Positions 24,380 through 61,003 of a stretch of 64,000 nucleotides of DNA are shown in pieces. This DNA is from Acidobacteriaceae bacterium. GTDB taxonomy: Bacteria; Acidobacteriota; Terriglobia; Terriglobales; Acidobacteriaceae. A program made the translations under genes and the position numbers. Where the stretch lies: assembly GCA_903642235.1 (NCBI GenBank), contig CAHJWL010000007.1, positions 124,001 through 188,000 on the forward strand, written 5' to 3'. Within the stretch, counting starts at the first letter, position 1; each line of letters begins with the position of its first letter. The notes beneath the pieces are model-generated. The model was given only the letters and a program-made list of their open reading frames with translations. It did no database searches and was not told the DNA's origin.

Positions 24380-24958
24380 TCAGAAGGAAGCACATCCATC
24401 TCGAGGAGCTTTTTCGGTTGGTTGGTAGAACTGCCATGACTCCTCTACGGCGAAGGGGCCGCCCGCGTCGAGGTAGATGAGCCCTGAGACGCGGCCGGGG
24501 TGGTGTTTGGACACGGAACTCATCTCTTGACCCGCAATTGAATGCCCGACCAACACAGGAGTGGGCAGATGTAGCGCGTCAAGAACCGCTACAACATCGT
24601 CCCCGAACTGCTTGGCCGTATACCCGTTTGAGGGGGCCGAGGATCGACCAGTTCCACGCCTGGTGATTCCGTAGACGTGGAACTGCTTCGCGAGCCTGGG
24701 AGCGAGACTCGCATACACATGAGCGGTGTTCCCTCCACCAGCGAGCAGGACAAGATCCCGTCCGGATCCGCCCCAGTCGAGAACTTCGAGTTTGACGTTA
24801 GGAGCGACTGTGACGAAGCGCTGCCCTGGATGAGCTGAACTTTGGCGAGCATCCTGAGAAAGACTCGCAGGCGAAAAGATAAGGCAGATAGCCATTGAGC
24901 ACAAGCGGGTGAGTGTTGAGCGGAGCACTGGCACTCGATGCGTGGTGTTCTTGTTCAT
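24380..24958 (-). pseudogene. Secreted alpha/beta hydrolase, C-terminally truncated
   Basis: 192 residues against roughly 310 expected from its relatives. A signal peptide is followed by VKLEVLDWGGSGRDLVLLAG, FHVYGITRRGTGRSS and VLVGHSIAGQEMS, where Ser in GHSIAG is the nucleophile. The frame ends in DGCASF shortly after the LIYLDAGGPF strand, so the lid, the acid residue and the catalytic His region are gone, and the next 200 bp does not restore them. It is the same family as the hydrolases at 25145, 55376 and 56546. A copy of the cassette-like repeat lies about 40 bp upstream of the start, in the same orientation. Confidence 0.65.
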
Positions 24959-24994
24959 CACAGCTAGAGCATAGCCTGCTCGCGAACAGGTGGC

Positions 24995-25030
24995 GGGGCT
25001 CTGGAAGGCGCATAGTTGGAAGTGAAACAG
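24995..25030 (-). repeat. Cassette-like repeat core, copy h (divergent)
   Basis: On the minus strand this reads CACTTCCAACTATGCG then CCTTCCAG. It matches copy g at 21 of 28 aligned positions and the family consensus more loosely. It sits about 40 bp upstream of the truncated hydrolase at 24380-24958, the same placement as copies a, c and e. It is the weakest of the eight copies. Confidence 0.4.
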
Positions 25031-25144
25031 CCCGAGAAGTCCCTCCGAAGCTGCACTCTGATCTCTGGCTTCGGGGAAGAGTCGCTCTCAGTACTGAAAT
25101 GCGAGTCCCTGTACTCTGCACTCATCGGGCGTAGGATTTGCAAC

Positions 25145-26152
25145 ATGAGGCTCTGTAAAACACGCCGGGCTTGCTGTCTCCTTTTGCCTTCGCTGGGCAT
25201 CGCACTTTGTGCTCAGGAGAAACCTGATTTAACCAAGCACACTGTGCGGATGGTGTCCGTAGAAAAGGGTGTGAGTCTCGAGGTGCTCGACTGGGGTGGT
25301 ACCGGAAGGCCATTGGTCCTGCTGACGGGACTAGCCGATGACGCTCATATCTTCGACCAGTTCGCTCCGAAGCTTACGGCGAAGTATCACGTTTACGGCA
25401 TCACTCGTCGTGGCCGGGGCATCTCCAGTTCGCCCCACCCTGAAGGACGGAACTATTCCGCTGACAGATTGGGAGAAGATGTATTGTCCGTCATTGATGC
25501 CTTGCATCTTGACAAACCCGTAATCGCGGGGCATTCCATCGCTGGCGAAGAGCTGAGCTACATCGGATCGCGTCATCCCGAGAAGGTAGCTGGACTCATC
25601 TACCTGGAAGCTGGCTATCACTACGCTCTTTACGATCAAGCTCATGGCGAATTGGAACTGGATGCCATTCATCTACGAGACCAGTTGCGTCAGTTCACCA
25701 ACGGGTACGCCCTGGAGCCTGTGAAAGACTTCGATGGCGTGATCGCGAATCTGGAACGTGTAAAAGATGAGATCAAGCAACTCGAGCAGAAGACCAAAGA
25801 CCTTCCTCCTACTCCGATAAGCCCCAGGATGACCCCGGAGCTGTTCGCCGTCATAGAGGGCGAGGAACAGTTCACGACCATTCACGCACCTGCCCTCGTG
25901 ATTATGGCCGGAACGGAGGGGGAGAAACCTGTTCCCATTACAGGAGATGATCCATAGTCCCGTGCCCAGGCCGCGAGACAGGTGCTTGAGATACAACGCA
26001 AAGAGCTGCAGTATCCCGTCTTTGCACGGCAGGCGCCGGCGGTTCATGTGATCAGGCTGGCGCACGCTACTCACTACATCTTTGAGTCCAACGAGGCTGA
26101 AGTCCTCCGCGAGATGAACGCCTTCATTGCCACACTGCCGCCAGTCACGTAG
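25145..26152 (+). pseudogene. Secreted alpha/beta hydrolase interrupted by an in-frame TAG
   Basis: A signal peptide (CCLLLPSLGIALC) precedes the family blocks VSLEVLDWGGTGRPLVLL, YHVYGITRRGRGIS and VIAGHSIAGEELS. The frame stops at TAG 25955-25957 just after ITGDDP. Reading on in the same frame gives 64 more well-conserved codons, including VIRLAHATHYIFESNEAEVL with the likely catalytic His, ending at 26152. The paralogue at 55376 has GDDPKS at the same point, so the TAG replaces a Lys codon by one base change. Without readthrough the protein lacks its His. It is either a recent nonsense pseudogene or a rare case of amber readthrough. Confidence 0.8.
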
Positions 26153-26186
26153 GTGAGAGAGCAGTTGTTGTAGAGGTGCAATTCAA

Positions 26187-29409: not shown

Positions 29410-29485
29410 CTGTCACAAACGAAGGTTTGTAACAGCGTACCCGTCCTCGATTCCCTACAACAACGTTTTATCGGGAACATATGTC
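29410..29485 (+). repeat. Cassette-like repeat, copy f (divergent)
   Basis: The core reads ATTCCCTACAACAACG then TTTTATCGGGAACATATG (29450-29483), matching the consensus with one inserted base. A 10-bp near-perfect hairpin (TGTCACAAAC / GTTTGTAACA, 29411-29434) precedes it, in the place where other copies have their apical hairpin. It lies in the 253-bp gap after the ABC permease. No plus-strand gene follows it directly. Confidence 0.5.
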
Positions 29486-29557
29486 CACGCTCTGGGCAAA
29501 GATCGGCCATCACGACCCGTTGTGACCTGAATCCAAGTACACAACGGGCATGACGTG

Positions 29558-31540: not shown

Positions 31541-31628
31541 ACTGCGGTTGATGTGGCCGAGGTCGCTCGGAAAATCAACGGCACTTGGCCATCGCCCGAT
31601 TGATACCGACGAGTCGCGTTGTCGTCAG

Positions 31629-31705
31629 TAACGCGCCTCAGCGGCGGGTCTGGCCAGGACAAAGCCGCCAGCTTCCCACAACGGCGTTTCTGGGGAGTAA
31701 TGACC
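31629..31705 (+). repeat. Cassette-like imperfect dyad, copy a
   Basis: The core is CTTCCCACAACGGCGTTT followed by CTGGGGAGTAATG. The outer arms TCAGTAACGC and GCGTTTCTGG pair at 8 of 10 positions, the inner arms GGCGG and CCGCC pair fully, and an apical GTCTGGCCAGGAC hairpin lies between. The start codon of the TonB-domain gene is 46 bp after GCGTTT. With copy b it encloses exactly that one gene. Confidence 0.6.
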
Positions 31706-31730: not shown

Positions 31731-32204
31731 ATGACGGTCAAGTTTGCACTTGTCGCTTCGTGCTTTCTCTTCAGCCAGGCGATGTTCACCGTGGCGCAGG
31801 ATCGAAAGCCCATAGCCATTCCCGAGAGAACGATGGCGGCGAGGTTGCAGACGTTTGCGACTCCTGCTTTCTCGACGCCTGCTTCGGCAAGTCGCTGCTC
31901 TAGCGCACTAGCGGTCGTTCATATCATCGTTGACGGCGATGGGCATGTAAGCAGTGCCGACTACTTAAGTGGCTACGATGATTTGAAAGAACCCGCACTG
32001 GCTGCCGTGCGACGATGGACTTACAAGCCCCGTCTCATTGACGGTCAGCCTGTACTGGTTGACACCAAAGCATCCATCTTCTACCTCGGTGACGGGACTT
32101 CGATGCCGATGTACGTGCCTGATGGAAAAGGCGGCACAAAGGGCGGGAACATCATTCCACTCCCGCCTGGTTGCGGCCAAGGACCGCAGATTAACAGGGA
32201 CTAG
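31731..32204 (+). CDS. Secreted TonB C-terminal-like domain protein (single-gene cassette-like unit)
   Basis: 157 residues with a signal peptide (ALVASCFLFSQAMFTVAQ). It contains a TonB_C/energy-transducer fold (VVHIIVDGDGHVSSADYLSG, DLKEPALAAVRRWTYKPRLI, GQPVLVDTKASIFYL), where RWTYKP is the family signature. There is no N-terminal membrane anchor or Pro-rich linker, so it is not a full TonB. Acidobacterial genomes hold many such stand-alone domains of unknown role. It is bounded on both sides by the cassette-like repeats a and b. Its last residues are Gly/Pro-rich. Confidence 0.75.
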   Translation: MTVKFALVASCFLFSQAMFTVAQDRKPIAIPERTMAARLQTFATPAFSTPASASRCSSALAVVHIIVDGDGHVSSADYLSGYDDLKEPALAAVRRWTYKPRLIDGQPVLVDTKASIFYLGDGTSMPMYVPDGKGGTKGGNIIPLPPGCGQGPQINRD

Positions 32205-32263
32205 TATCTCCGCCTCAACATTGGCGGCTCAGCCGGATCGGTACCGCAGAGTCGCATCATCGG

Positions 32264-32342
32264 AAACGGTCCGGCCCAAACCGGCGTCGAGGCGCGACAG
32301 ATCGGCCAACTTCCCACAACCGCGTTTATCAGGAGCTATCTC
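32264..32342 (+). repeat. Cassette-like imperfect dyad, copy b
   Basis: The core is CTTCCCACAACCGCGTTT followed by ATCAGGAGCTAT. The apical hairpin is GTCG-aggcg-CGAC, with AAACGG upstream partly pairing with the core. The segment from the apical GAC to GCGTTT is nearly identical in length and sequence to copy a. It begins 60 bp after the TonB-domain stop. The rest of 32205-32501 has no supported gene. Confidence 0.6.
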
Positions 32343-36300: not shown

Positions 36301-36364
36301 TGACATGTCAATTCGGGGCCCTAGCATTAGTAACGAGAGGTCGCATAGTGTGGAGTGACGCCGG

Positions 36365-37309
36365 TCAGGGAGGGTCCGGTTCCAGCCCGATCCTGTCGTT
36401 GACGGCGTTCCGGAGCCGTTGCTTGCACCCCAGGTAACGCTCCGTGGTCTGGACGGAGACGTGCCCAAGGAGGAACTGGATTTGTTCGAGCTCGCCTCCC
36501 GCTTGATGGCATAATCGGGCGCAGGTTCGACGGAGATCGTGAGGAGCCACAGTACCGAAGCCGCAGTCGGTCGCCGCCTTGCGAACGATGGACCAGATGA
36601 CTTTAGAGGTGAAGCCGCTACTTCGAACTTTACCGGTCTTGCCAACCGGACGGAATAGCACCCCGCTCTGCAGGTTCGCAGAGCTCGTCCAGGCATCCAC
36701 GGCGAACTTGACCCATCCCGGCACCGGTACGGTACGCATGTGACCACCCTTGCCGATGAGGTCTGCCAACACCCAGTGATCCTCTCGAAGCTCGAAATCC
36801 TCCACGGAGATGGTGACAACCTCAGCCCGGCGCAGACCACAGCCGATCAGCATGGCCAGGACTGCTCGGTTACGCGTCGCCCGGAGCTCTGGGCCAGACG
36901 GAGAAGCGACAAGCTTTCTGCCTTGCTCGGCGGAGAGCCAGTTGCCCACCCTGACGCCGAGTCGCTTGGCTCCTTTTACCCGGCGAATGCCGGCGGCCAA
37001 GTCGGGGCTAAGGAGGCCGGAGTCAGACGCCTCGAATGCCAGCCGGCGAACGGCAGCCAGGCGAAGATTGATGGTCGCCGGAGCGTACCGCCGTTGTTCC
37101 AAGGCTATCCGGTACCGTGTCACGACCGTTCTGTTGAATGACAGCCGTGGCTCAGAGCAGTACCAGTCGATGAAGTCTCGGATGGCGTGATCATAGGACC
37201 GCCGTGAACTAACCGAGCTGAGGCTGTTCAGAACGGCGTTCTTGGAGTGCTCCAGGTCCGGCAGCTTCAGGACCGTCTTGGGATTACGCTTTTTAGCTCT
37301 CTTCGTCAT
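36365..37309 (-). CDS. Tyrosine recombinase/integrase (intact)
   Basis: 314 residues from the ATG at 37309 (MTKRAKKRNP), preceded by GGAGG; an upstream ATG at 37339 is less likely. The N-terminal SAM-like domain (SSRRSYDHAIRDFIDWYCSE, TINLRLAAVRRLAFEAS) precedes a complete catalytic set: Arg in GCGLRRAEV, Lys in IGKGGHMRTVPV, HDLRRTCARL, His in LLGHVSVQTT and Tyr in ERYLG. I see no IntI-specific insertion. It resembles a recombinase family common in Acidobacteriota. It is the only intact tyrosine recombinase in the window and so the best candidate to act on the cassette-like repeats. Confidence 0.88.
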   Translation of the reverse strand: MTKRAKKRNPKTVLKLPDLEHSKNAVLNSLSSVSSRRSYDHAIRDFIDWYCSEPRLSFNRTVVTRYRIALEQRRYAPATINLRLAAVRRLAFEASDSGLLSPDLAAGIRRVKGAKRLGVRVGNWLSAEQGRKLVASPSGPELRATRNRAVLAMLIGCGLRRAEVVTISVEDFELREDHWVLADLIGKGGHMRTVPVPGWVKFAVDAWTSSANLQSGVLFRPVGKTGKVRSSGFTSKVIWSIVRKAATDCGFGTVAPHDLRRTCARLCHQAGGELEQIQFLLGHVSVQTTERYLGCKQRLRNAVNDRIGLEPDPP

Positions 37310-37530
37310 CGCACGGCCTCCAGACCGTGCGACAAGCATGAGCCAGCGAGGATTGCTGACGCCTGCCGTGCTTATGAGGAGTAATCATTCCGAACGGAGC
37401 GTGGGCGAGTGATCGAATCAGCCAGGGCCGAGTCTCCTTTGTGTGAAACCCGTCCTAAAAGGTATCGTCAGTATCCTTACTAGAGTGCAGCGCGATCCGG
37501 GATGAATGTTGCCGGGTGCGTGGGAGAGCT

Positions 37531-39923: not shown

Positions 39924-41236
39924 AGCCGAAACCAGCTGCTTTGGTCGCATCGGTTTTTCTGATTTCCTGCATACCAGCGTGGGCGCATCGAATCGACGAG
40001 TATCTGCAAGCTACAATCCTCTCCCTGAAATCGAATTGTGCGCACGCGTCCATGCGCCTGATCCCGGGTGTCATGGTCGCGCCTTCCGTCATCGCGACGA
40101 TCGACACCAATCACGACGGATCTTTTTCAGAACCGGAGAAGCGTGCCTATGCAGAACGGGTCCTCCGCGACCTGTCGATCACGATCGATGGAAAGACAGC
40201 CAAGCCTCAGCTCGACGCGTGGGCCATCCCCGATGCGTCGCAACTAGGCGATGGCCTGGGTGAGATTCACCTGGAGTACCATGTGGATCTTCCGCCATCG
40301 GCAGCATCCAAACGAAGCTTGATCGTTTCGAATTGTCATCTGAACAACACCTCCGTTTACCTCATGAACGTTGAGGTGCCGCAGGATCGCGATCTTCGCA
40401 TCGTGGACCAGAAGAGGAATGCGCGCCAGTCAACCTACGAGGTCGACTACGTACAAGCCGCCGTTGCGGCAACTCCGACCGGCACGAGGGCGGATATTCG
40501 CGCGTGGTGGAATGGCCTGCAGTTTTCCAACCTGTTCCGCCTTGGCATGCGCCACATCGCAGAGGGCACAGACCATCTGCTTTTCCTTCTGGTGCTATTG
40601 CTTCCAGCGCCGCTGCTGGCGGTAGGCCCACGGTGGGCCGCCCCTGCAAGTACTCGTCAAAGTCTGCTTCACATCTTCGGCATTGTTACCGCGTTTACCA
40701 TTGGCCATTCTTTCACGCTGACGCTGGCTGCGATGAACTTCGTCCATGTCCCCGCGCAGCCGGTGGAGGTACTTATCGCCATATCGATCCTGGTTTCGGC
40801 AGTGCACGCCTTGCGTCCGATTTTCCCCGGTAGGGAGGCGTGGATTGCGGCCTTCTTCGGTCTCATCCACGGCTTGGCGTTCGCATCCACGTTGGATCGA
40901 CTTGGGCTCGCCCGATGGGATCGTGTTGCAGGCATTCTGTCATTCAACCTAGGCATTGAAACGATGCAACTGATGGTGGTCGCACTCGTCCTGCCGTCGT
41001 TGCTGTTGATGAGCCGCACGCAAGCTTACTCTGCTTTCCGCACCACCGGGGCAGCATTCGCGTGCGTTGCCTCCGCCATGTGGATTGCCGAACGGCTCCT
41101 GAACATTCAGACCCCAATCGATGCAGTTGTGAACGTGGTTGCGCAGAGAGGTATCGTCTGCGCGATCCTATTGTTCGCAGCAAGCCTTCTTTGTCAGCTC
41201 CTCGATAAGCGGTTAGAGGTATTCAAGTCCTCATAA
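39920..41236 (+). CDS. HupE/UreJ_2-family membrane protein with EF-hand-like loop
   Basis: 438 residues. A signal peptide (ASVFLISCIPAWA) is followed by a periplasmic domain that contains an EF-hand-like loop IDTNHDGSFSEPEKRAYAE. From about residue 200 the conserved membrane half follows: FRLGMRHIAEGTDHLLFLLV, IVTAFTIGHSFTLTLA, and FGLIHGLAFASTLDRLG, with several helices and conserved His residues. HupE/UreJ relatives are linked to nickel or cobalt transport, so a metal role is plausible. The start overlaps the second DUF3500 gene (ATGA), which ties the three products together. Confidence 0.85.
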   Translation: MKPKPAALVASVFLISCIPAWAHRIDEYLQATILSLKSNCAHASMRLIPGVMVAPSVIATIDTNHDGSFSEPEKRAYAERVLRDLSITIDGKTAKPQLDAWAIPDASQLGDGLGEIHLEYHVDLPPSAASKRSLIVSNCHLNNTSVYLMNVEVPQDRDLRIVDQKRNARQSTYEVDYVQAAVAATPTGTRADIRAWWNGLQFSNLFRLGMRHIAEGTDHLLFLLVLLLPAPLLAVGPRWAAPASTRQSLLHIFGIVTAFTIGHSFTLTLAAMNFVHVPAQPVEVLIAISILVSAVHALRPIFPGREAWIAAFFGLIHGLAFASTLDRLGLARWDRVAGILSFNLGIETMQLMVVALVLPSLLLMSRTQAYSAFRTTGAAFACVASAMWIAERLLNIQTPIDAVVNVVAQRGIVCAILLFAASLLCQLLDKRLEVFKSS

Positions 41237-41264
41237 GTCGCATTAGCGGAAGTAATCTGGCCTG

Positions 41265-41395: not shown

Positions 41396-41977
41396 ATGTT
41401 GATCGGCTACGCCCGTGTCTCGACCGAACAGCAGGAAACCGAGGCGCAGCACCCCGCTATCAAGAAGGCGGGGTGCAAGCGCATCTACGAAGAAACCGTC
41501 AGCGGCGGGACGCTAGAGCGTCCTGTCCTCGAGAAGTGTCTGGAGCGGCTTGAAGAGGGCGACACCCTCGTAGTGTGGCGCTTGGATCGGCTCGGACGCT
41601 CGATCCGGGATCTGCTCCAGATCATGGATCGTCTGGAACGTCGCAGAACTCACTTCATCTCTCTGACAGAGAAGTTCGACACCAGTTCTGCAGCCGGGAG
41701 GCTGGTCTTTCACTTTTTTGCGGCTCTGACACAATTTGAACGAGAGCTGATCCGGGAGCGCACCATGGCCGGGTTATCGTCGGCCCGAGCGCGAGGAAGA
41801 CTGGGTGGACGCAAGAGAATCCTTTCAGTGCAGCAGGCGAAGGTCGCGAAGACGATGTGGGATAGTCGCGACCACACCAGAGCTGACATCGCTTCGCATT
41901 TTAATGTATCGCCGGCGACTATTGATCGCATTCTGCGGGCAGCTCGAACGGCGCCGGAGATCAGGGGAGGGAAGTGA
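41396..41977 (+). CDS. Serine recombinase (resolvase/invertase family)
   Basis: 193 residues. The catalytic domain begins MLIGYARVSTEQQ with the nucleophile Ser at residue 9. It contains LVVWRLDRLGRSIRDLL (Arg cluster), the long E helix (FFAALTQFERELIRERTMAG) and a C-terminal helix-turn-helix (TRADIASHFNVSPATIDRIL). It is complete. Its TGA overlaps the ATG of the next small gene by one base (TGATG), so three genes form an operon: recombinase, a 67-residue protein and an HNH protein. The target site is not identified; the inverted repeat at 41265 is a candidate. Confidence 0.92.
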   Translation: MLIGYARVSTEQQETEAQHPAIKKAGCKRIYEETVSGGTLERPVLEKCLERLEEGDTLVVWRLDRLGRSIRDLLQIMDRLERRRTHFISLTEKFDTSSAAGRLVFHFFAALTQFERELIRERTMAGLSSARARGRLGGRKRILSVQQAKVAKTMWDSRDHTRADIASHFNVSPATIDRILRAARTAPEIRGGK

Positions 41978-42904: not shown

Positions 42905-43528
42905 ATGAGCACACTACCGCCAACTTCTCCTTCTGCCGCTCCTTCAAACCCATCATGGATAGAGCTCAGCAAATTTATACAGGCTCAAAATGAGGCTGGC
43001 CGCGCTGTCATAGACCGATGGTTCACGCTAGCAACTGGAGTTTTGGAGGTTCTGGTAGTTGCGATTTCAGTAGGTCTTGGGCTATTTGGATGGAAAACAC
43101 TAGCCGACGCAAGAAACACTGCTGAACAAGTGGCCCGAGCCAAAGCCACCGAAGTGGCGACATCGGAAGCGAAGAAAGTGGCGAGGCAGGTTGCGGATAA
43201 AGCAGCCTCAACAGCAGCGACCGAGCAGGTAAAACTGATCATGCAGGATCCTCACGTTCAAAAGCTAGTACGCGACACAGCAGCCCAACTCTTCCGAGAA
43301 GGCGCATACAAACGAACCGTTGAGGAAGCAGTTCATGAACAGATGCAGGCGGCGATTGCTGATGGTGTCGTTGGTAATTACGTGGCTTCGGTGAAATGGA
43401 ATACCGAATCAGAGCTTGGGAATAACGAGAAAGCTACCCAACAAATAGAGCAGCTGATCACAATCAGCGGCTCTAAATCAAGGCGGCTCCGTCTCAGTCC
43501 TATTCTGAACAACAACTGCCTAAGATGA
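42905..43528 (+). CDS. Hypothetical membrane-anchored coiled-coil protein
   Basis: 207 residues. One transmembrane helix (residues about 45-65, VLEVLVVAISVGLGLFGW) is followed by a long Ala/Lys/Glu-rich coiled coil (ARAKATEVATSEAKKVARQV ... AASTAATEQVKLIMQD) and a helical tail. There is no recognised domain. The gene stands alone; 42650-42904 upstream holds nothing else I can support. It converges on the disrupted integrase gene with about 5 bp between the ends if the integrase frame is restored. Confidence 0.65.
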   Translation: MSTLPPTSPSAAPSNPSWIELSKFIQAQNEAGRAVIDRWFTLATGVLEVLVVAISVGLGLFGWKTLADARNTAEQVARAKATEVATSEAKKVARQVADKAASTAATEQVKLIMQDPHVQKLVRDTAAQLFREGAYKRTVEEAVHEQMQAAIADGVVGNYVASVKWNTESELGNNEKATQQIEQLITISGSKSRRLRLSPILNNNCLR

Positions 43529-43533
43529 CCGCC

Positions 43534-44501
43534 TTAGTAGGCAATCCGCTCCACCTCATCGAGCGCGATGGTGTCATCGCGCCGGTCATAAAGCCCGGTA
43601 GTGCGCGCTGACTCATGCCGGCCATCTGCTGGGCGATCTCGAGCTTGCCGCCGTTCTGCAGGTAGGTTGTGATCCCGGTTGCGCGAAAGCTGTGGGCGCT
43701 GATCTTGGTCTTGAGCCCCGCAGCTCGCGCCCGCCTCTGAATCATCAGGTGCACATTGGGCTGGGGCAGGGGGGTGTGGCCGTTCAGCCGTCCATAACGC
43801 AGGGCAGGGAAGAGCGGTGCCTCGGACTCGCTGGCGAGCCCGGAGGCGGCGATCCACTCCTCTAGATACTGATCGAGGTTGTGATGGCAGGGAAGCTCGG
43901 TCACCTTGCCGCCCTTCTCGTGAAGCCGTACCCAACCGCGGCGCTTCTGGACGTAGTAGTCCTGGACCCGCATGCCGGTCGCCGCGCCGACGCGGGCGAA
44001 GGTGTAGCCCATGAGCGCGATGAGGGCACGATCGCGGAGCCCAAGCAGGGAAGTGGTGTCGATGGCGGCGAGCAACTCGTGCATCTCCTCGGCCGAGAGC
44101 ACGGAGGTCTTGCCTTTGCGGACGCTGTGTTTCGGTCCGCGTACCGCATGGGCTGGGTTGGTCTCCATGATGTGCCCGGTCACCAGCCAATCGAAGAGCA
44201 TCCGGATCGCGGCGAGATGCTGTTTGACGGTCGGCTTCGCGAGGGTGCGGCCGAGCTGCTCGACGTAGGCCGCCACGTGCATCGGCGTCACCTCGGCTAG
44301 ATCCCCCAAGCCTTTCTCCTCACACCAGGCTGCGAACCCCTGGACGGCTTTGAAGTAGGCGCGACGGGTGTTCGGGTTGCGGATGTTGACGGTGAAAAAC
44401 TCCCAAAAGCGCCGGCCGCTCTCGGGCACAGCCCGAAAGAGCGCCGGCAGGCGACTATCGGCTGATGTGGCTGAGGGGAGCGCGAGCTCTAGCCAGGTCA
44501 C
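43534..44501 (-). pseudogene. Tyrosine recombinase (XerC/D-like) frameshifted before the catalytic Tyr
   Basis: The frame from a GTG at 44501 shows the N-domain (VKQHLAAIRMLFDWLVTG) and catalytic Arg (LMGYTFARVGAATGM), then HSFRATGITTYL. After AQQMAG the sequence shifts: the continuing frame reads nonsense to 43500. Another frame gives HESARTTGLYDRRDDTIALD ending VERIAY at 43534, exactly the family C-terminus with the Tyr nucleophile. The shift is near 43617-43622 and looks like loss of one C. In the present sequence the enzyme lacks its Tyr and should be inactive. Confidence 0.8.
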
Positions 44502-52329: not shown

Positions 52330-52704
52330 TCAGCTTCGAGCAATACGATCAAGCAGCTTGCGGGCAGCGCCAACGTCGGAACCGATGCGGGTCTCGAACT
52401 CGCCTTCAAGGTCCAGCCCGTTACAAATCTCGTTGAGCGCGTTTTGAACGATGCGTAACTCGTCAAGACTCAGTTCTAACCGAATGGTCGGTGCTGCGGC
52501 CACGGCAACCAGTCCACTATGGCCGCTGGGGAACTCACGCTGCTCGACCATGACCGCTTGCCCACTCTCGAAAAGCCACGCCTCGTCATCGGGCTTGGTG
52601 TCGGTGATCCGGAAGACTGCTGGACTCAACAACTGAGCACATACCGGCTTCCACACATCGGTACCCTCATCACGCAAAGGGACGTAAATGAGTTGAGTCT
52701 GCAT
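52330..52704 (-). CDS. Passenger gene of the insertion sequence: two-domain hypothetical protein
   Basis: 124 residues, inside the insertion sequence and overlapping the transposase 3' end by 35 bp. The N-terminal half (YVPLRDEGTDVWKPVCAQLL ... WLFESGQAVMVEQREF) resembles a small beta-rich domain seen as a stand-alone protein. The C-terminal half (LELSLDELRIVQNALNEICN, FETRIGSDVGAARKLLDRI) resembles another helical stand-alone family. I do not know a function for either. It is not part of the transposase and is carried as cargo. Confidence 0.75.
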   Translation of the reverse strand: MQTQLIYVPLRDEGTDVWKPVCAQLLSPAVFRITDTKPDDEAWLFESGQAVMVEQREFPSGHSGLVAVAAAPTIRLELSLDELRIVQNALNEICNGLDLEGEFETRIGSDVGAARKLLDRIARS

Positions 52705-54055
52705 GGATGGAATCGTAGCAGTCTGCAGCGTTGGCTGTACCTTGCTGAGCTGCTGATGGTGCTTTAGCTCTCAGGCCGCGCCTCTTGTAGCCGGTCTTCT
52801 CGCTGTTGGTCATGACCTTCGTTGCCAGCCGGAGGTCCTGCTGGGCCTTCACGACAGCGAGCGCATGGCCCAGCCGCTTGTTCTCGACGATGGCGGTATG
52901 GCTAACACGCTGGTCCTTGCTGAAGACACGATAGGGAAGAACGTGTCCTCTCCAACGCACTTCGAGCGGCCTATCCCAGTAGTCGAACAGCTCGACGTAC
53001 TGGCCTTCAAGACTTTTCGCCACGTCGGTCTGCTCCAGGATGATCTGCTTGCGGTCGTAATGGAACGTGAGCTGAGCGCCCACGTAGCGCTGCTCGCGGT
53101 GGCAGCGGATGTCGTTCAGCCGGGGCGTGGTCGTTCGCAGTGGCCTATGCAAGTCTTGCATCTTGGCTGCCGGCACGGAGAAGCGCTCGTTGTAGCGCTC
53201 CATGAACGCAGGCAGGAAAGCGTTGCCGGCCGCCATGTCGCTGATGCTTGCGAGCCGTAGCTCCTTCACGAGCCGGTCCTGCAGCGTGCGGTTAGCACGT
53301 TCGACGCGGCCCTTCGCCTGGCTGGAGTTCGCGCATAGGATCTCGATGTTCAGTTCGGAGAACGCACGGCCGAACTGCGTCATGCCTTGGCCGCCCTTGG
53401 TGTCCTGGCGCACGACGCGGAAGACGGAGTGCTTGTCGGAGTAGAAGGCGACAGGGCAGCCGTGCTCGTGCAGGTAACCGCGTAGAGCTTGGAAGTACGA
53501 CTCCGTGCTCTCGCTCGGAACGAAGCGCAACTGCATCAGCTTGCTCGTGGCGTCGTCCACGAAGACCAGCAAGGTGCAGGGCTCTGCACGATCCTCGAAC
53601 CAACGGTGTTCGCTGCCGTCGATCTGGACCAGCTCACCATACGACTCGCGCCGGAGTCGTGGCTGGTGAAAGGTCTTGCGCTGCTTGCGTGAGAGCCGGA
53701 CACCCTCGGCCATCATCCATCGCCGCAAGGTCTCGCGGCCTACGTGGATCGCGTGACGTTCGGCTAGAGTCTCGGTGGCCAGCGTCGGTCCAAAGTCGGC
53801 ATAGTGGGTCTTGACCAGCTCAACAGCGAACTTCCGGATGCCGGGGTTATGGCTCCGGTTCGAAGCGCAGCCTTGCGCCTTGTGCACTAGACCAAAGCCG
53901 TCGTTCTCCTGGTACCGCGCCAGCAGCCTGTACGCTTGCCGCTCGCTCACGCCCAGCACGGAAGCCGCAGCGGTCACTGTGCGCCTGCCGGACTGCACCT
54001 CGTTCAGAACTTCAACACGCCGAACTTCGCGCTCGCTCATCCTCGTCCACGCCAT
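52670..54055 (-). CDS. ISNCY/IS1202-family DDE transposase
   Basis: 461 residues and apparently complete. The N-terminal helix-turn-helix (RRTVTAAASVLGVSERQAYR) is followed by LRRWMMAEGVRLSRKQRKTF. The rve catalytic core has Asp in GELVQIDGSEHRW, Asp in VAFYSDKHSVFR, and Glu in SQAKGRVERANRTLQDRLVK. The C-terminal domain (LTFHYDRKQIILEQTD) is typical of this group. It lies 58 bp inside the right terminus and should mobilise the element. Confidence 0.92.
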   Translation of the reverse strand: MAWTRMSEREVRRVEVLNEVQSGRRTVTAAASVLGVSERQAYRLLARYQENDGFGLVHKAQGCASNRSHNPGIRKFAVELVKTHYADFGPTLATETLAERHAIHVGRETLRRWMMAEGVRLSRKQRKTFHQPRLRRESYGELVQIDGSEHRWFEDRAEPCTLLVFVDDATSKLMQLRFVPSESTESYFQALRGYLHEHGCPVAFYSDKHSVFRVVRQDTKGGQGMTQFGRAFSELNIEILCANSSQAKGRVERANRTLQDRLVKELRLASISDMAAGNAFLPAFMERYNERFSVPAAKMQDLHRPLRTTTPRLNDIRCHREQRYVGAQLTFHYDRKQIILEQTDVAKSLEGQYVELFDYWDRPLEVRWRGHVLPYRVFSKDQRVSHTAIVENKRLGHALAVVKAQQDLRLATKVMTNSEKTGYKRRGLRAKAPSAAQQGTANAADCYDSIHADSTHLRPFA

Positions 54056-54173: not shown

Positions 54174-55221
54174 CTATATGAGTTTACTCTTCCGGTCAAC
54201 ACGTTCTCCCTGAGGAGCCTTCCGATCAACTGTTGTCTCGTCTTCCTTGGCAACGGCTCGGGAGTCTTTGTCCTCTCGAAGGGCGACAAAGCTTGCATGG
54301 CGTAGATGGTCGTTCGGGGTCCATTCCAAGAAGCGGAACTGCGCGACGGCCTCTGGGCGAAGCCAAGTGCAGTTCTTCATTTTTGCAGTGGTGAGTTCCT
54401 GGCCCCAGCGCCCCGGCGCTGGCTTCTGGCAGATTGACGAACGGGCAGACCTCGGCCTGCAGCGGGGCGAGCTGCGCGTGGAGAGCGCGGCGGCTTGTCG
54501 GAACAAACCCGGCGCGAACACTGGCGCAGAAATGGAGACGGTCGCCTCGGTAGAAGCCAACCAGGACAGCATCGAAGCCGTGAGTCCCTGGCGTCTAGCC
54601 GCCGATGACAAGCTCTTGAGAAAGCTCGACCCGCATCTTGGTCCAAGCGCCGGTGCGTCTTCCCTGTTCGTAGGTGCTTGAAAGGCGTTTAGCGACAACA
54701 CCCTCCAAGCCATGGCTTCGAACTAGCTCAAGCATCTGCGCAGCGGGAATGTTTAAGCTCTCTGAAAGCTGAACTGTAGCAGTGGGACGAAGAGACGCTC
54801 GCAGGAGCGCGCGGCGCTCCGACAATGGCCTCTGGGTGAGGTCCGCTCCATCAAGTCTTAGGAGATCGAAGGCAAGAAAAACGAAGGTAGCATCGCTGGT
54901 TGCGGAGTTCTGAATGAGGCTGAAGCTCGGCCTTCCTGATGGATCAAGGGCGACCAGCTCACCGTCGAGTACGGAACCAGGTGGAACCGCCTTAGCGAGT
55001 TCCGGCAGGAGTGCCGGAAACCGCTGTCCAAGATCTTTGCCGTTGCGAGAGAGTAGCTGGGTGTGTTCTCCGTCGCAGAGGGCCTGTGAGCGATAGCCGT
55101 CCAGCTTGATCTCGTATGTCCACTCTGGCCCTTCTGGGAGTCTGGATACCAGAAGGCACTCCATCGGCTCGTGAAAGCTCATTTGGCGTGAGGATGCAGG
55201 ACCGCGTTTTTCGCTAACCAT
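54174..55221 (-). pseudogene. ATP-dependent DNA ligase (LigD-type ligase domain), inactivated
   Basis: The start at 55221 gives MVSEKRGPASSRQMSFHEPM, then the nucleotidyl-transfer motif EIKLDGYR with the catalytic Lys, LDGELVALD and GLEGVVAKR. The frame ends at TAG 54595-54597 in VIGG-stop-TPGTHG, where relatives have Tyr. The same frame then continues FDAVLVGFYRGDRLHFCASV to about 54415, where a one-base shift leads to GRWGQELTTAKMKN and the OB-fold end EWTPNDHLRHASFVALREDK. With a nonsense codon and a frameshift, the OB domain cannot be made. The intact form would seal nicks in non-homologous end joining or base repair. Confidence 0.85.
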
Positions 55222-55264
55222 AGCGTGCAAGTTTATGGGCAGCGGATTGGCAAATCCAGGGGAG

Positions 55265-55335
55265 TTACTTGCCAGCCATTACAGGCGGTGGCACCTTACA
55301 ACTGCCGAGAACGGCGTTTAGCAGGACCTACGGAT
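55265..55335 (+). repeat. Cassette-like repeat, copy e
   Basis: The core reads CAACTGCCGAGAACGGCGTTT then AGCAGGACCTACGG (55299-55334). It has three differences from the consensus before GCGTTT and a good AGGACCTA tail. The start of hydrolase 55376 is 61 bp after GCGTTT. With copy c it encloses exactly that gene. Confidence 0.55.
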
Positions 55336-55375
55336 TGGACTCTGTAATCTGGTTTGGTCATTTAGGAGCCACGAC

Positions 55376-56363
55376 ATGAGATTTAGAGTGCTGTGCGTTC
55401 TGGTTTCTTTGGCCCTCTTCGTAGGTGGATTGATTGGTCAGGAGACGACCGTTTCCTCGAAACCTGCGGTCCGAATGGTCGAAGTGGAGAAGGATGTCAG
55501 TCTTGAGGTCCTTGACTGGGGCGGCACGGGCAGACCGCTTGTTTTGCTCGCAGGCCTGGGCGACGACGGACACATCTTCAACGATTTCGCTCCCAAACTC
55601 ACTGCCAAGTATCACGTGTACGGCATTATGCGCCGTGGGCGCGGTGCCTCAAGCAAGCCTGTCCCGACGGATGCGAACTACAGCGCTGACAGGTTAGGCG
55701 AAGACGTGCTGGCTGTCATCAATGACTTGCATCTTTTGATGCCCGTCCTTGCGGGGCACTCTTTGGCTGGCGAAGAGCTGAGCTGTATCGGCTCCACTCA
55801 TCCCGAACGCGTGGCCGGCCTTATTTACCTGGAAGCCGGCTACCCCTACGCGCTCTACGATCAGCGTCATGGCCAGTTGGATCTCGACGTCATTGAATTT
55901 CGCAAGCAGTTACGTCCTCTCATCAATGGGTACGCTTTTGAGGCGGTCAAGGACTACGGCGGTCTGATTGCCAATTTGCAGCGGGTTGAGAAGGAGCTCG
56001 AGCAGCACCAGCAGGAAACGAAAGGTCTTCCTCCTTCCTGGGTGAGTCCGCGCATGACGCCCGACCTCTTCGCGATCATGGAAGGGCGGGAAGAATTCAC
56101 TTCGATCCGAACACCTGCACTCGTGATCTTCGCAACCGATCCCAGTCCTATTTCTGGAGATGATCCCAAATCTCACGCCGAGGAGGTGAGGCAAGAGCTA
56201 CTGATGGCCGGCAAGAAATACAGATCGAAGCTTTCAAACGGCAGGTCCCCTCCGCTCACGTCGTCCTCATCCCGCGTGCGACGCATTATGTATTTCAGTC
56301 CAACGAAGCCCAACTTCTACGTGAGATGGAAGCGTTCATCGCCACACTGCCACCAGAGAAGTA
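55376..56363 (+). pseudogene. Secreted alpha/beta hydrolase with a frameshift before the catalytic His
   Basis: A signal peptide (VLVSLALFVGGLIG) precedes VSLEVLDWGGTGRPLVLLAG, YHVYGIMRRGRGASS, and VLAGHSLAGEELSCIG with the nucleophile Ser. After GDDPKSHAEEVRQELL, near 56195-56215, the frame shifts. The native ending (KRQVPSAHVVLIPRATHYVF, then EMEAFIATLPPEK) lies in another frame and stops at 56363; it holds the catalytic His. Unshifted, the frame reads on into the next hydrolase and creates an artificial 554-codon ORF. It is the closest paralogue of the interrupted gene at 25145 and lies alone between repeats e and c. Confidence 0.8.
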
Positions 56364-56440
56364 GTGCTCAGGAACATGCACCGAAGGGTTGTGTTCGCCC
56401 TAGTGTCGCGGGCAAGTTCTCCGAAGTCGCATTCTCGTCT

Positions 56441-56515
56441 GTAAACATGCTTGGGGGAGCCCCCGCAGGTAAAGCGTCGGCAACTTCTCACAACCGCGTT
56501 TGTAGGGACCTATGC
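56441..56515 (+). repeat. Cassette-like imperfect dyad, copy c
   Basis: The core is CTTCTCACAACCGCGTTT followed by GTAGGGACCTATG. Upstream GTAAAC partly pairs with the core GTTTGTA, and the apical hairpin is GGGGG-AG-CCCCC-like. It begins 78 bp after the restored stop of the preceding hydrolase, and the next hydrolase starts 50 bp after GCGTTT. Confidence 0.6.
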
Positions 56516-56545
56516 GACTATGAAGCAGTTGCTAAGCGAGATTCC

Positions 56546-57515
56546 ATGTCAAGGAAAATGCAAGTTCTAGCAGCAGCTTTGGCTTGTCTGATCAGTGGCA
56601 CTCTGACGGCCTCAGCTACTCCGGCCCCAGCTGTAAGTTTCGTGTCCGTCTCGCCGGATGTCCGAATCGAGGTAGTGGACTGGGGAGGCTCTGGACCGCG
56701 GCTGGTTCTGTTGGCGGGCTCTGGCGATACCGCGCACATCTATGATGACTTCGCACCGAAGCTGACCAATGAGTTTCACGTGTATGGCATTACGCGGCGT
56801 GGCTATGGCGCTTCGAGCGCACCTGCTACGGGGTATTCAGCCGACCGTCTAGGCGACGATGTGGTTGCTGTGCTTGATGCTCTGCACCTTAGCAAACCGC
56901 TTCTTGTTGGCCATTCCCTTGCTGGTGAGGAAATCAGCTCGATAGCTATACGCCACAGTTCAAATAGCTGGGGCGGTGTACATGGACGCCGCATTGCCGT
57001 TCGCTTACCAGAATCCGGCATACCCGCAGCATCCCTCTGACTTTGAGGCTCTGCAGGCTGAACTTTCCAAACTTGCTCCGATGAGCGCTCCCACTTCGGC
57101 GGATACTGCCAGCTTTCCTGCCTTCCAGATATGGCTAGCCAAGATGCTTGGGGTACAGTTCCCCATTTCGGAGCTGAAGGCGACTTTGAACACTGATGCT
57201 GCCGGGCACATCACGAAGCAGAAGACAGGTAGCACAATCAGTGAAGCGATTCATAAAGGTGAAGAGCGGTTTACAAGTATTCCGGTCCCGGCACTGGCAA
57301 TTTTTGCGATCCCGCATGCCTTTGGAGCGAATTTCGATACCCTCCCGAGATCAACGCGGGAAGCTTTTGAAGCGAAGGAAGTCACGGAACTCGGCAAGAT
57401 GGCTGACCAGTTTCAATTGGGCGTTCCTTCTGCTGAAGTCGTTCGTATCGCACATGCCAATCACTATGTTTTCATCTCAAATGAATCCGAGGTGCTTGCA
57501 GCGATTCGCAGCTGA
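56546..57515 (+). pseudogene. Secreted alpha/beta hydrolase with a mid-gene frameshift
   Basis: It starts at 56546 with a signal peptide (AAALACLISGTLTASA), then VRIEVVDWGGSGPRLVLLAG, FHVYGITRRGYGASS and LLVGHSLAGEEIS. Around 56957, after SSIAIRH, the frame shifts. The native continuation VQIAGAVYMDAALPFAYQNP runs in another frame, with the acid strand VPALAIFAIPHAF and the His region VVRIAHANHYVFISNESEVL, to a stop at 57515. All catalytic parts exist but in two frames. It resembles the truncated copy at 24380 most closely. It lies alone between repeats c and d. Confidence 0.8.
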
Positions 57516-57576
57516 TCTTCGTCTGAAGGGCCTGATTCAGGACTAGGAATAAGAAGTCTTATCGTCGGAAGTGATT

Positions 57577-57645
57577 GAACCGAAAGCCGGCCTGAGCCGA
57601 AACCAGCCCCAAACTTCCCATAACGGCGTTTCTCGTTACTAATCG
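57577..57645 (+). repeat. Cassette-like imperfect dyad, copy d
   Basis: The core is CTTCCCATAACGGCGTTT followed by CTCGTTACTAATCG. The apical hairpin is CGGC-CTGA-GCCG, and GAACCG upstream partly pairs with CGGCGTT. It begins 62 bp after the stop of the preceding hydrolase. No plus-strand gene follows; the next gene is convergent. Confidence 0.6.
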
Positions 57646-60830: not shown

Positions 60831-60890
60831 GGCGCTAGGTACTGAAAGTCGCAATATGGGAAGTGATCCGAGCCGAACCGCTCTCGAGTT
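60831..60890 (-). repeat. Cassette-like repeat, copy g
   Basis: On the minus strand this reads CACTTCCCATATTGCGACTT followed by TCAGTACCTAGCG, keeping ACTTCCCA, GCG, TTTCAG and ACCTA of the consensus. A CGAG/CTCG pair flanks the upstream loop. It is oriented towards the PadR/ADOP genes and lies 136 bp before the PadR start. Confidence 0.5.
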
Positions 60891-61003
60891 CATCGCAAGT
60901 GTCAACTTCCGTCAAACGCGTTAGCGTTGTCGATCTCATCTCCATGGGCTGGTGCTCAGTCCGGAAGACCACGAGGATCCGCAAAGCCCATGAGCCATAC
61001 CTG

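Follow-up and report, generated by a model that had tools for sequence, protein, structure and literature searches.

Repeats e, c and d, which flank two hydrolase genes in the DNA analysed here (the window: a stretch of 64,000 nucleotides, bases 124001-188000 of the 228-kb contig C7, from an Acidobacteriaceae genome of 3.79 Mb in 29 contigs), are probably paired dif-like recombination sites delimiting gene units that are exchanged in the fashion of Xer/pdif modules. We hold this reading with moderate confidence. The sites themselves, their conservation, their base pairing and their place at recombination junctions in relatives are described below. It is more tentatively proposed, as a possibility that we rate somewhat below even, that they belong to a separate cassette system, made of self-folding dif-like pairs and a dedicated Xer-type recombinase of the intA clade and distinct from both integrons and the pdif modules of Acinetobacter. 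Such a system, if real, would capture and swap genes across the Acidobacteriaceae and, Acidobacteria being abundant in soils, would offer a route for single-gene movement among them. Since the sites lack the attC core, integron finders probably miss them, and since they stand structurally between the duplex dif site and the folded attC hairpin, they bear on the origin of integrons from Xer systems. No earlier description was found in the literature on integrons or attC sites of Acidobacteria, or on tyrosine recombinases with inverted repeats, a search that left subscription papers mostly outside.

Three repeats enclose two one-gene intervals

A sequence-only reading of the window had described e, c and d as repeats around two single-gene units, and pattern searches with shuffled controls confirm them as real repeats, all on the plus strand. 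The core pattern matched the window five times on that strand (31672, 32310, 55302, 56484 and 57614; 0.29 expected), and none of 100 shuffled windows reached five matches. These are the five copies already recognised, and the family proved larger: a further full element lies at 60832-60937, and solitary half-sites stand at 36326 and 41223. Matrices for the half-sites, trained on sequence from outside the window, gave 14 matches at 13 places with scores of at least 14 (0.3 expected); one of these places (57003, minus strand) lies inside a hydrolase gene and is probably a chance match. The features of the locus are as follows, R1 and R2 denoting a first and a refined covariance model of the element.

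55211-55333, plus strand: element e, degenerate; R2 match with E 0.0068; right half 55301-55331 good (score 34.3), left half poor
55376-56364, plus strand: alpha/beta-hydrolase gene 1, cargo of unit e-c; open reading frame (ORF) and translation, PF00561 E 1.2e-9; frameshifted in its last third
56410-56515, plus strand: element c; left half 56412-56442, right half 56483-56513
56546-57515, plus strand: alpha/beta-hydrolase gene 2, cargo of unit c-d; frameshifted, hydrolase by similarity
57540-57645, plus strand: element d; left half 57542-57572, right half 57613-57643; R2 E 8e-13 (in the training set)

Element c matched R1 with E 3.9e-19 and R2 with E 8.3e-12, being in both training sets, and the matrices trained outside the window gave its half-sites scores of 21.2 and 28.4; the corresponding scores for element d were 16.7 and 38.4. 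Some of the distances first reported had to be revised. The core-to-core spacing of 1130 bp was right, and that given as 1181 bp is 1182 bp. The start codons, placed 50-61 bp past the core, lie 57 and 45 nt past the core end (55376 and 56546). The next dyad had been put 62-78 bp past each stop; with both halves counted, elements c and d begin 45 and 24 nt past the stops.

Two inverted dif-like half-sites make up each element

When the copies were aligned, a second conserved motif (approximately AAGTCGCATTATSGGAAGTGA) was seen 59-63 nt 5' of the core in seven copies. It is an imperfect reverse complement of the 3' motif, so that the element consists of an inverted pair of half-sites, a left half (LH) and a right half (RH); this pairing within every repeat had been overlooked in the first reading, which saw the repeats as such. 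Each half-site measures about 28 bp and has the 11-6-11 arrangement of arm, core and arm that is typical of dif-like sites here, the two lying inverted around a loop with cores GTCGGC and CGGCGT. The long form of RH is approximately ACTTCC[CT]ACAA-CGGCGT-TTATCNGGACT, and for comparison dif of B. subtilis is ACTTCCTAGAA-TATATA-TTATGTAAACT (PMC3025954). A dif matrix built from three published sites placed 33 of 54 right and 33 of 54 left half-sites within the top 1% of 1.58 million background positions, although this matrix hardly discriminates orientation. Its best match over all loci (score 21.2) is ATGTCCGATAACACATATTATGTACAGT on the minus strand of locus L111 at offset 3408, which is possibly a true dif.

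In the folded element, 4 unpaired nt form a spacer between an outer and an inner box, the latter having one extra base, and a loop completes the structure. For measurements, 55 of 72 matches could be anchored and 17 were dropped for want of an anchor. The distance from AAGT to GTTT was 32-91 nt in 54 of these 55 and 214 nt in one, and the AAGT/GTTT asymmetry was fixed in 45 of 55 for each motif, the anchoring step favouring such motifs. In an alignment of 39 R1 matches from 31 sources, which leans towards the structure of the model, 71.7% of cells were paired, and covariation reached 0.214 as against 0.148 ± 0.010 after shuffling (none of 500 shuffles reached it) and 0.05-0.09 in slid controls. 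An earlier covariation test on 11 copies had shown no excess over shuffles. Folding of five single copies as DNA gave none clearly stronger than shuffles (z from 0.28 to -1.38), RNAalifold predicted no pairs on 8 copies, and Rfam returned three sub-threshold matches in window 24-60 kb, none within an element.

Two smaller motifs accompany the elements. By eye, a second repeated motif (approximately AAATCGCCAATGCACTCATCGA) stands just 5' of many short elements (L068, L072, L074, L079, L082, L086, L088 and L092), and it occurs inverted downstream of others (L083 and L085). Locus L092 also has, at 1501-1538, a nearly perfect palindrome of 38 nt that consists solely of outer arms; with 38-nt matches in G011 and G012, it occurs in three species.

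The family is widespread in Acidobacteriaceae and forms arrays

R1 detected the family in 30 of 62 genomes of the genus (E ≤ 0.01), where solitary copies of about 74 nt are common, and R2 found it in 72 of 300 Acidobacteriaceae genomes (E ≤ 0.001), covering 24 of 79 genera. Elements reside on contigs of 4-6 Mb in G012, G024, G183 and G306, and also on G061:C4, which matches a Granulicella plasmid. A same-strand array in G306 is composed of one right half and four full elements spaced 667, 744, 639 and 414 nt apart. Among 31 inter-element units of up to 2.6 kb, the longest ORF had the same direction as the element in 15 and the opposite direction in 16, the frameshifted hydrolase of e-c being counted among the 15. 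A SnoaL-like gene forms a single-gene unit in both G306 and G321 (76.6% over 475 bp); the pair is suggestive, but the common block ends away from the elements. A search for one core pattern in 84,980 genomes yielded eight stretches, three of them in Chryseobacterium/Kaistella, and these were taken as chance.

Some common blocks in relatives end at the elements

The element at G012:C2:234257 seemingly has no counterpart in G011, and its 3-kb surroundings were searched in the genus. G024 matched the left side at 97% up to element position 28 and showed nothing beyond. Comparison of 19-kb regions from G012 and G024 revealed exactly one common block (1623 bp, 97.1%), which carries a LysR regulator and a lipocalin-like gene, has an element at each end and is flanked by unrelated DNA; the four element matches include two weak ones, with E 0.036 and 0.0061. 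Blocks ending in an element were also found for G399/G024, G032/G021, G021/G030, G023/G547, G030/G531 (L079/L098) and G020/G042 (L040/L084). Both ends of the G023/G547 block lie at elements with different DNA beyond, and the same holds for at least one end in G032/G021, G021/G030 and G024/G399. With regard to the exact position, identity extends to the end of AAGTC or AAGTCGGCTT in the left half for G012/G024, G021/G030 and G024/G399, continues for about ten nt more in G032/G021, and in G023/G547 begins at TTT of the right core.

Block ends were then counted in 31 large loci, using blocks of at least 200 bp and at least 72% identity and accepting an end within 15 nt of an element. Of 45 interior ends, 18 fell in elements, compared with 1.35 expected by random placement (maximum 11 in 2000 placements), and the ends of both partners did so in five cases (0.0125 expected). 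Ten of the 18 belonged to blocks of the recombinase gene; without these blocks the count is 8 of 22. Junctions in relatives (G012/G024, G023/G547, G032/G021, G021/G030 and G024/G399) thus support the view that the repeats delimit mobile units, and e-c-d would presumably be mobile in the same way.

A candidate recombinase and a possible mechanism

The window encodes a recombinase, here called intA, with half-sites at its edges.

36326-36356, plus strand: lone left half-site directly beyond intA on its 3' side (scores 18.5 and 19.1)
36365-37339, minus strand: intA, Xer-type tyrosine recombinase (PF00589 E 6.3e-20)
37355-37385, plus strand: weak, ambiguous half-site that scores as a right half, 16 nt before the intA start (score 13.3, below the threshold of at least 14; L130 2488-2518)

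The intA product scores 104 bits as XerC and 44 bits as integron integrase (cut-off 265), its nearest solved structure is a XerC-like recombinase, and homologues occur in 82 of 300 family genomes (E ≤ 1e-40). Of 30 loci with an intA-clade gene, seven, among them the window, have half-sites scoring at least 12 within 150 nt of that gene (10 matches, 0.25 expected), and the rest of the flank (68.6 kb) held eight. By position, then, intA and the half-sites are linked, which makes intA a candidate for the catalyst of the system. Other recombinases had first been given this role. One candidate was a neighbouring recombinase pair in G306, since dropped. Another stands beside elements in L083 and L113 and is part of an IS91-family element (PF04986, PF14319). 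This IS91-family element is present in two species (L083 529-1570 and L113 8362-10586) with a paired site of unusual outer arm just 5' of the recombinase gene; in L113 it has a tyrosine recombinase and a Y2 transposase with a zinc domain, and the block common to both loci covers 68 of the 70 nt of the paired site.

In the mechanism that we propose, the two half-sites of about 28 bp (11-6-11) lie inverted around a short loop, an arrangement that also lets the element form a single long hairpin. Each gene-bearing unit would extend from the right half of one element to the left half of the next. An Xer-type tyrosine recombinase, either of the intA clade or the host XerC/XerD, would cut the cores near AAGT/C in the left half and G/TTT in the right half (slash, cut), with strand exchange inside the core. 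Left halves would be exchanged with left and right halves with right, because the two cores differ. Units would in this way be exchanged into new locations, as has been suggested for inverted Xer/pdif modules, and one RH plus one LH crossover would give a common block including the unit and the inner arms. The right end of the G012/G024 block and the left end of the G023/G547 block fit this expectation, and the opposite ends do not. The hydrolase units e-c and c-d may have arrived by such exchange.

Several observations weigh against this reading. The G012/G024 block excludes the right arm at its left end, and the G023/G547 block excludes the left arm at its right end, so that no block fits core exchange at both ends. 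As many as 27 of the 45 block ends lie away from elements, and the ends are not independent since the loci were picked for elements or intA (or through the G012 search) and share blocks. L096 and L097 share a gene together with a whole element, a pattern more like that of integron cassettes, and a cassette-boundary test, asking for complementarity between the left arm and the start of its own unit, gave no excess over random in 23 neighbour pairs; two single pairs, L051 and L113, were striking. At 23 of the 30 intA-homologue loci no such half-site is present at the gene edges, elements occur in G007 and G041, which have no intA homologue at 1e-40, and about 0.8 Mb of G012 scanned for a host dif contained nothing convincing.

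Transposon ends, attC sites or ordinary hairpins

We regard it as unlikely, while giving it more weight than any other rival, that the hairpins are derivatives resembling miniature inverted-repeat transposable elements (MITEs), or the ends, of an autonomous tyrosine-recombinase transposon organised as left half-intA-right half, with the genes as bystanders. In L136, and weakly in the window, intA does lie inside an element, with a left half at its 3' edge and a right half at its 5' edge; a half-site stands at one intA edge in L134, L144, L149 and L155; and a second, partial copy of left half plus intA is found on the same contig at 96% (L136/L192). The abundance of solitary copies of some 74 nt in the genus and the mixed orientation of the unit genes also speak for an origin of this kind. 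However, in L114, L131, L132 and L133 intA appears as cargo, with an element or half-site on either side. Transposition of such elements should moreover leave contiguous element-free flanks, whereas homology in the blocks was noticed on one side only, no dedicated test having been made.

Integron attC sites carry the core motifs GTTRRRY and, complementary to it, RYYYAAC. It is improbable that the elements are such sites, standing in clusters of attC sites lacking integron integrases (CALINs) and recombined by IntI from elsewhere. The likeness is real in several respects: an attC is an imperfect palindrome with paired outer and inner boxes, an unpaired spacer, an extra-helical base and a variable loop (PMC8946536), all of which recur in the elements here, and arrays of small unrelated genes with elements on one strand are seen in both. 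Canonical integrons are known in the phylum, as follows from the Acidobacteria attC model of Ghaly et al. (PMC8352920), and of 399 genomes of the class, six have an IntI match at 1e-50 (five over the cut-off), all of them outside this family. In contrast, neither GTTRRRY nor RYYYAAC was present in any of the 55 anchored elements, conservation extends about 16 nt past the core, and the gene orientation is mixed. The window's own genome gave no IntI match over the cut-off, and none was found in 250 family genomes at 1e-60, with at most eight candidates scored per genome and no positive control registered. The repeats beside IntI in G086 read GCCTAAC...GTTAGGC, and R2 had no match up to E 5 in 99 kb around the IntI genes of the class. 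Together with the negative boundary test, these results argue against IntI-driven exchange; as canonical attC the elements were rejected for their sequence, for the lack of IntI matches in these searches and by comparison with the G086 repeats. Canonical integrons were encountered in another family of the class, where L122 and L123 (G078 and G086) have IntI genes of 463 and 459 bits with GCCTAAC...GTTAGGC nearby.

Slightly less probable still is that the elements are ordinary conserved intergenic hairpins, terminators or regulatory structures, at which breakpoints gather because rearrangement is tolerated between genes. The copies in the window are indeed intergenic, synteny often stops at gene ends, and the 27 block ends with no half-site nearby agree with this view. 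Against it, in four pairs identity extends into the element and is lost at the core or a short way beyond it, in a fifth pair it begins at a core, the number of ends in elements far exceeds that expected, and the fixed AAGT/GTTT asymmetry, favoured as it is by anchoring, is not terminator-like.

The hydrolase genes

Both hydrolase genes are frameshifted, and the earlier description of intact genes does not stand. In gene 1 homology switches frame between gene nt 759 and 834, the first frame remaining open to 57040. Gene 2 has 12 stops in the first frame from 57040 on, its homology continuing in the ORF 56976-57515, and comparison with gene 1 by tblastx puts the switch between nt 438 and 701. 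Gene 1 has its closest match in the paralogue at 25.1 kb (70% over 235 aa) and matches gene 2 at 67% over 66 aa plus shorter pieces. The pair is therefore not a simple tandem duplication, the outcome named beforehand as one that would speak against mobile units, and that e-c and c-d arose by a duplication taking the repeat along is highly improbable even though one protein family occupies both units. Homologues of the window hydrolase were found inside a G547 unit (L105) and also in G598, where the two enclosing elements are 6.6 kb apart (L108). The region 24446-26153 of the window holds two more, divergent, hydrolase paralogues. The one starting at 25145 has, by reading, an in-frame TAG at 25955, and with the frameshifts in genes 1 and 2 all three plus-strand hydrolase copies are thus disrupted.

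Relation to known mobile systems

If the elements are paired recombination sites, as we favour, their closest parallel is the xrs/pdif modules of Acinetobacter, in which genes lie between Xer-type sites, often inversely oriented, with divergent central regions and unusually palindromic arms (PMC11705084). In that account pdif sites are hotspots of recombination between replicons, no excision was observed, and cointegration followed by resolution is the proposed route of exchange (PMC11705084). Inversely oriented dif-like 11-6-11 sites with differing cores around genes are common to both, as are junctions of shared and unshared DNA at the sites, seen here at 18 of 45 ends. The two differ in that the sites here stand in tight inverted pairs forming one hairpin, with cores GTCGGC/CGGCGT, and belong to Acidobacteriaceae, with chromosome-sized contigs in relatives, rather than to Acinetobacter plasmids; Xer action is here presumed. 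Elements of Vibrio likewise have tyrosine recombinases that move cargo genes (PMC9345347). A 7.1-kb element and Tn6283 share four coding sequences there, and the abstract mentions no paired-hairpin arrays. Recombinase-in-trio (RIT) elements contain three tyrosine recombinases, whereas here there is one, and none in most of the units examined.

Other features of the window

The regularity of e-c-d is accompanied by a second single-gene unit at 31.7 kb and by further copies of the element.

31597-31703, plus strand: element a, left border of the single-gene unit at 31.7 kb; R2 E 7.4e-15 (in the training set), half-site scores 29.0 and 36.4
31731-32204, plus strand: TonB C-terminal-domain gene, cargo of unit a-b; ORF, PF03544 E 4.3e-7
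32235-32341, plus strand: element b; R2 E 8.1e-15 (in the training set)
41223-41253, plus strand: lone left half-site with its partner half unrecognised; score 26.9, also a pattern match
60832-60937, plus strand: further full element downstream; R2 E 2.7e-9 (in the training set)

A resolvase-like gene (41396-41977) adjoins the lone left half-site, and a second tyrosine recombinase lies at 43500-44501. The gene at 52670-54055 is transposase-like with a helix-turn-helix N-terminus, and its relatives are found near elements in L111 and L201. A degenerate right-half-like sequence follows an ABC transporter gene at 29450-29490; it contains a CACAAACG..GTTTGT hairpin, and the same hairpin is present in the loop of the elements in G057.

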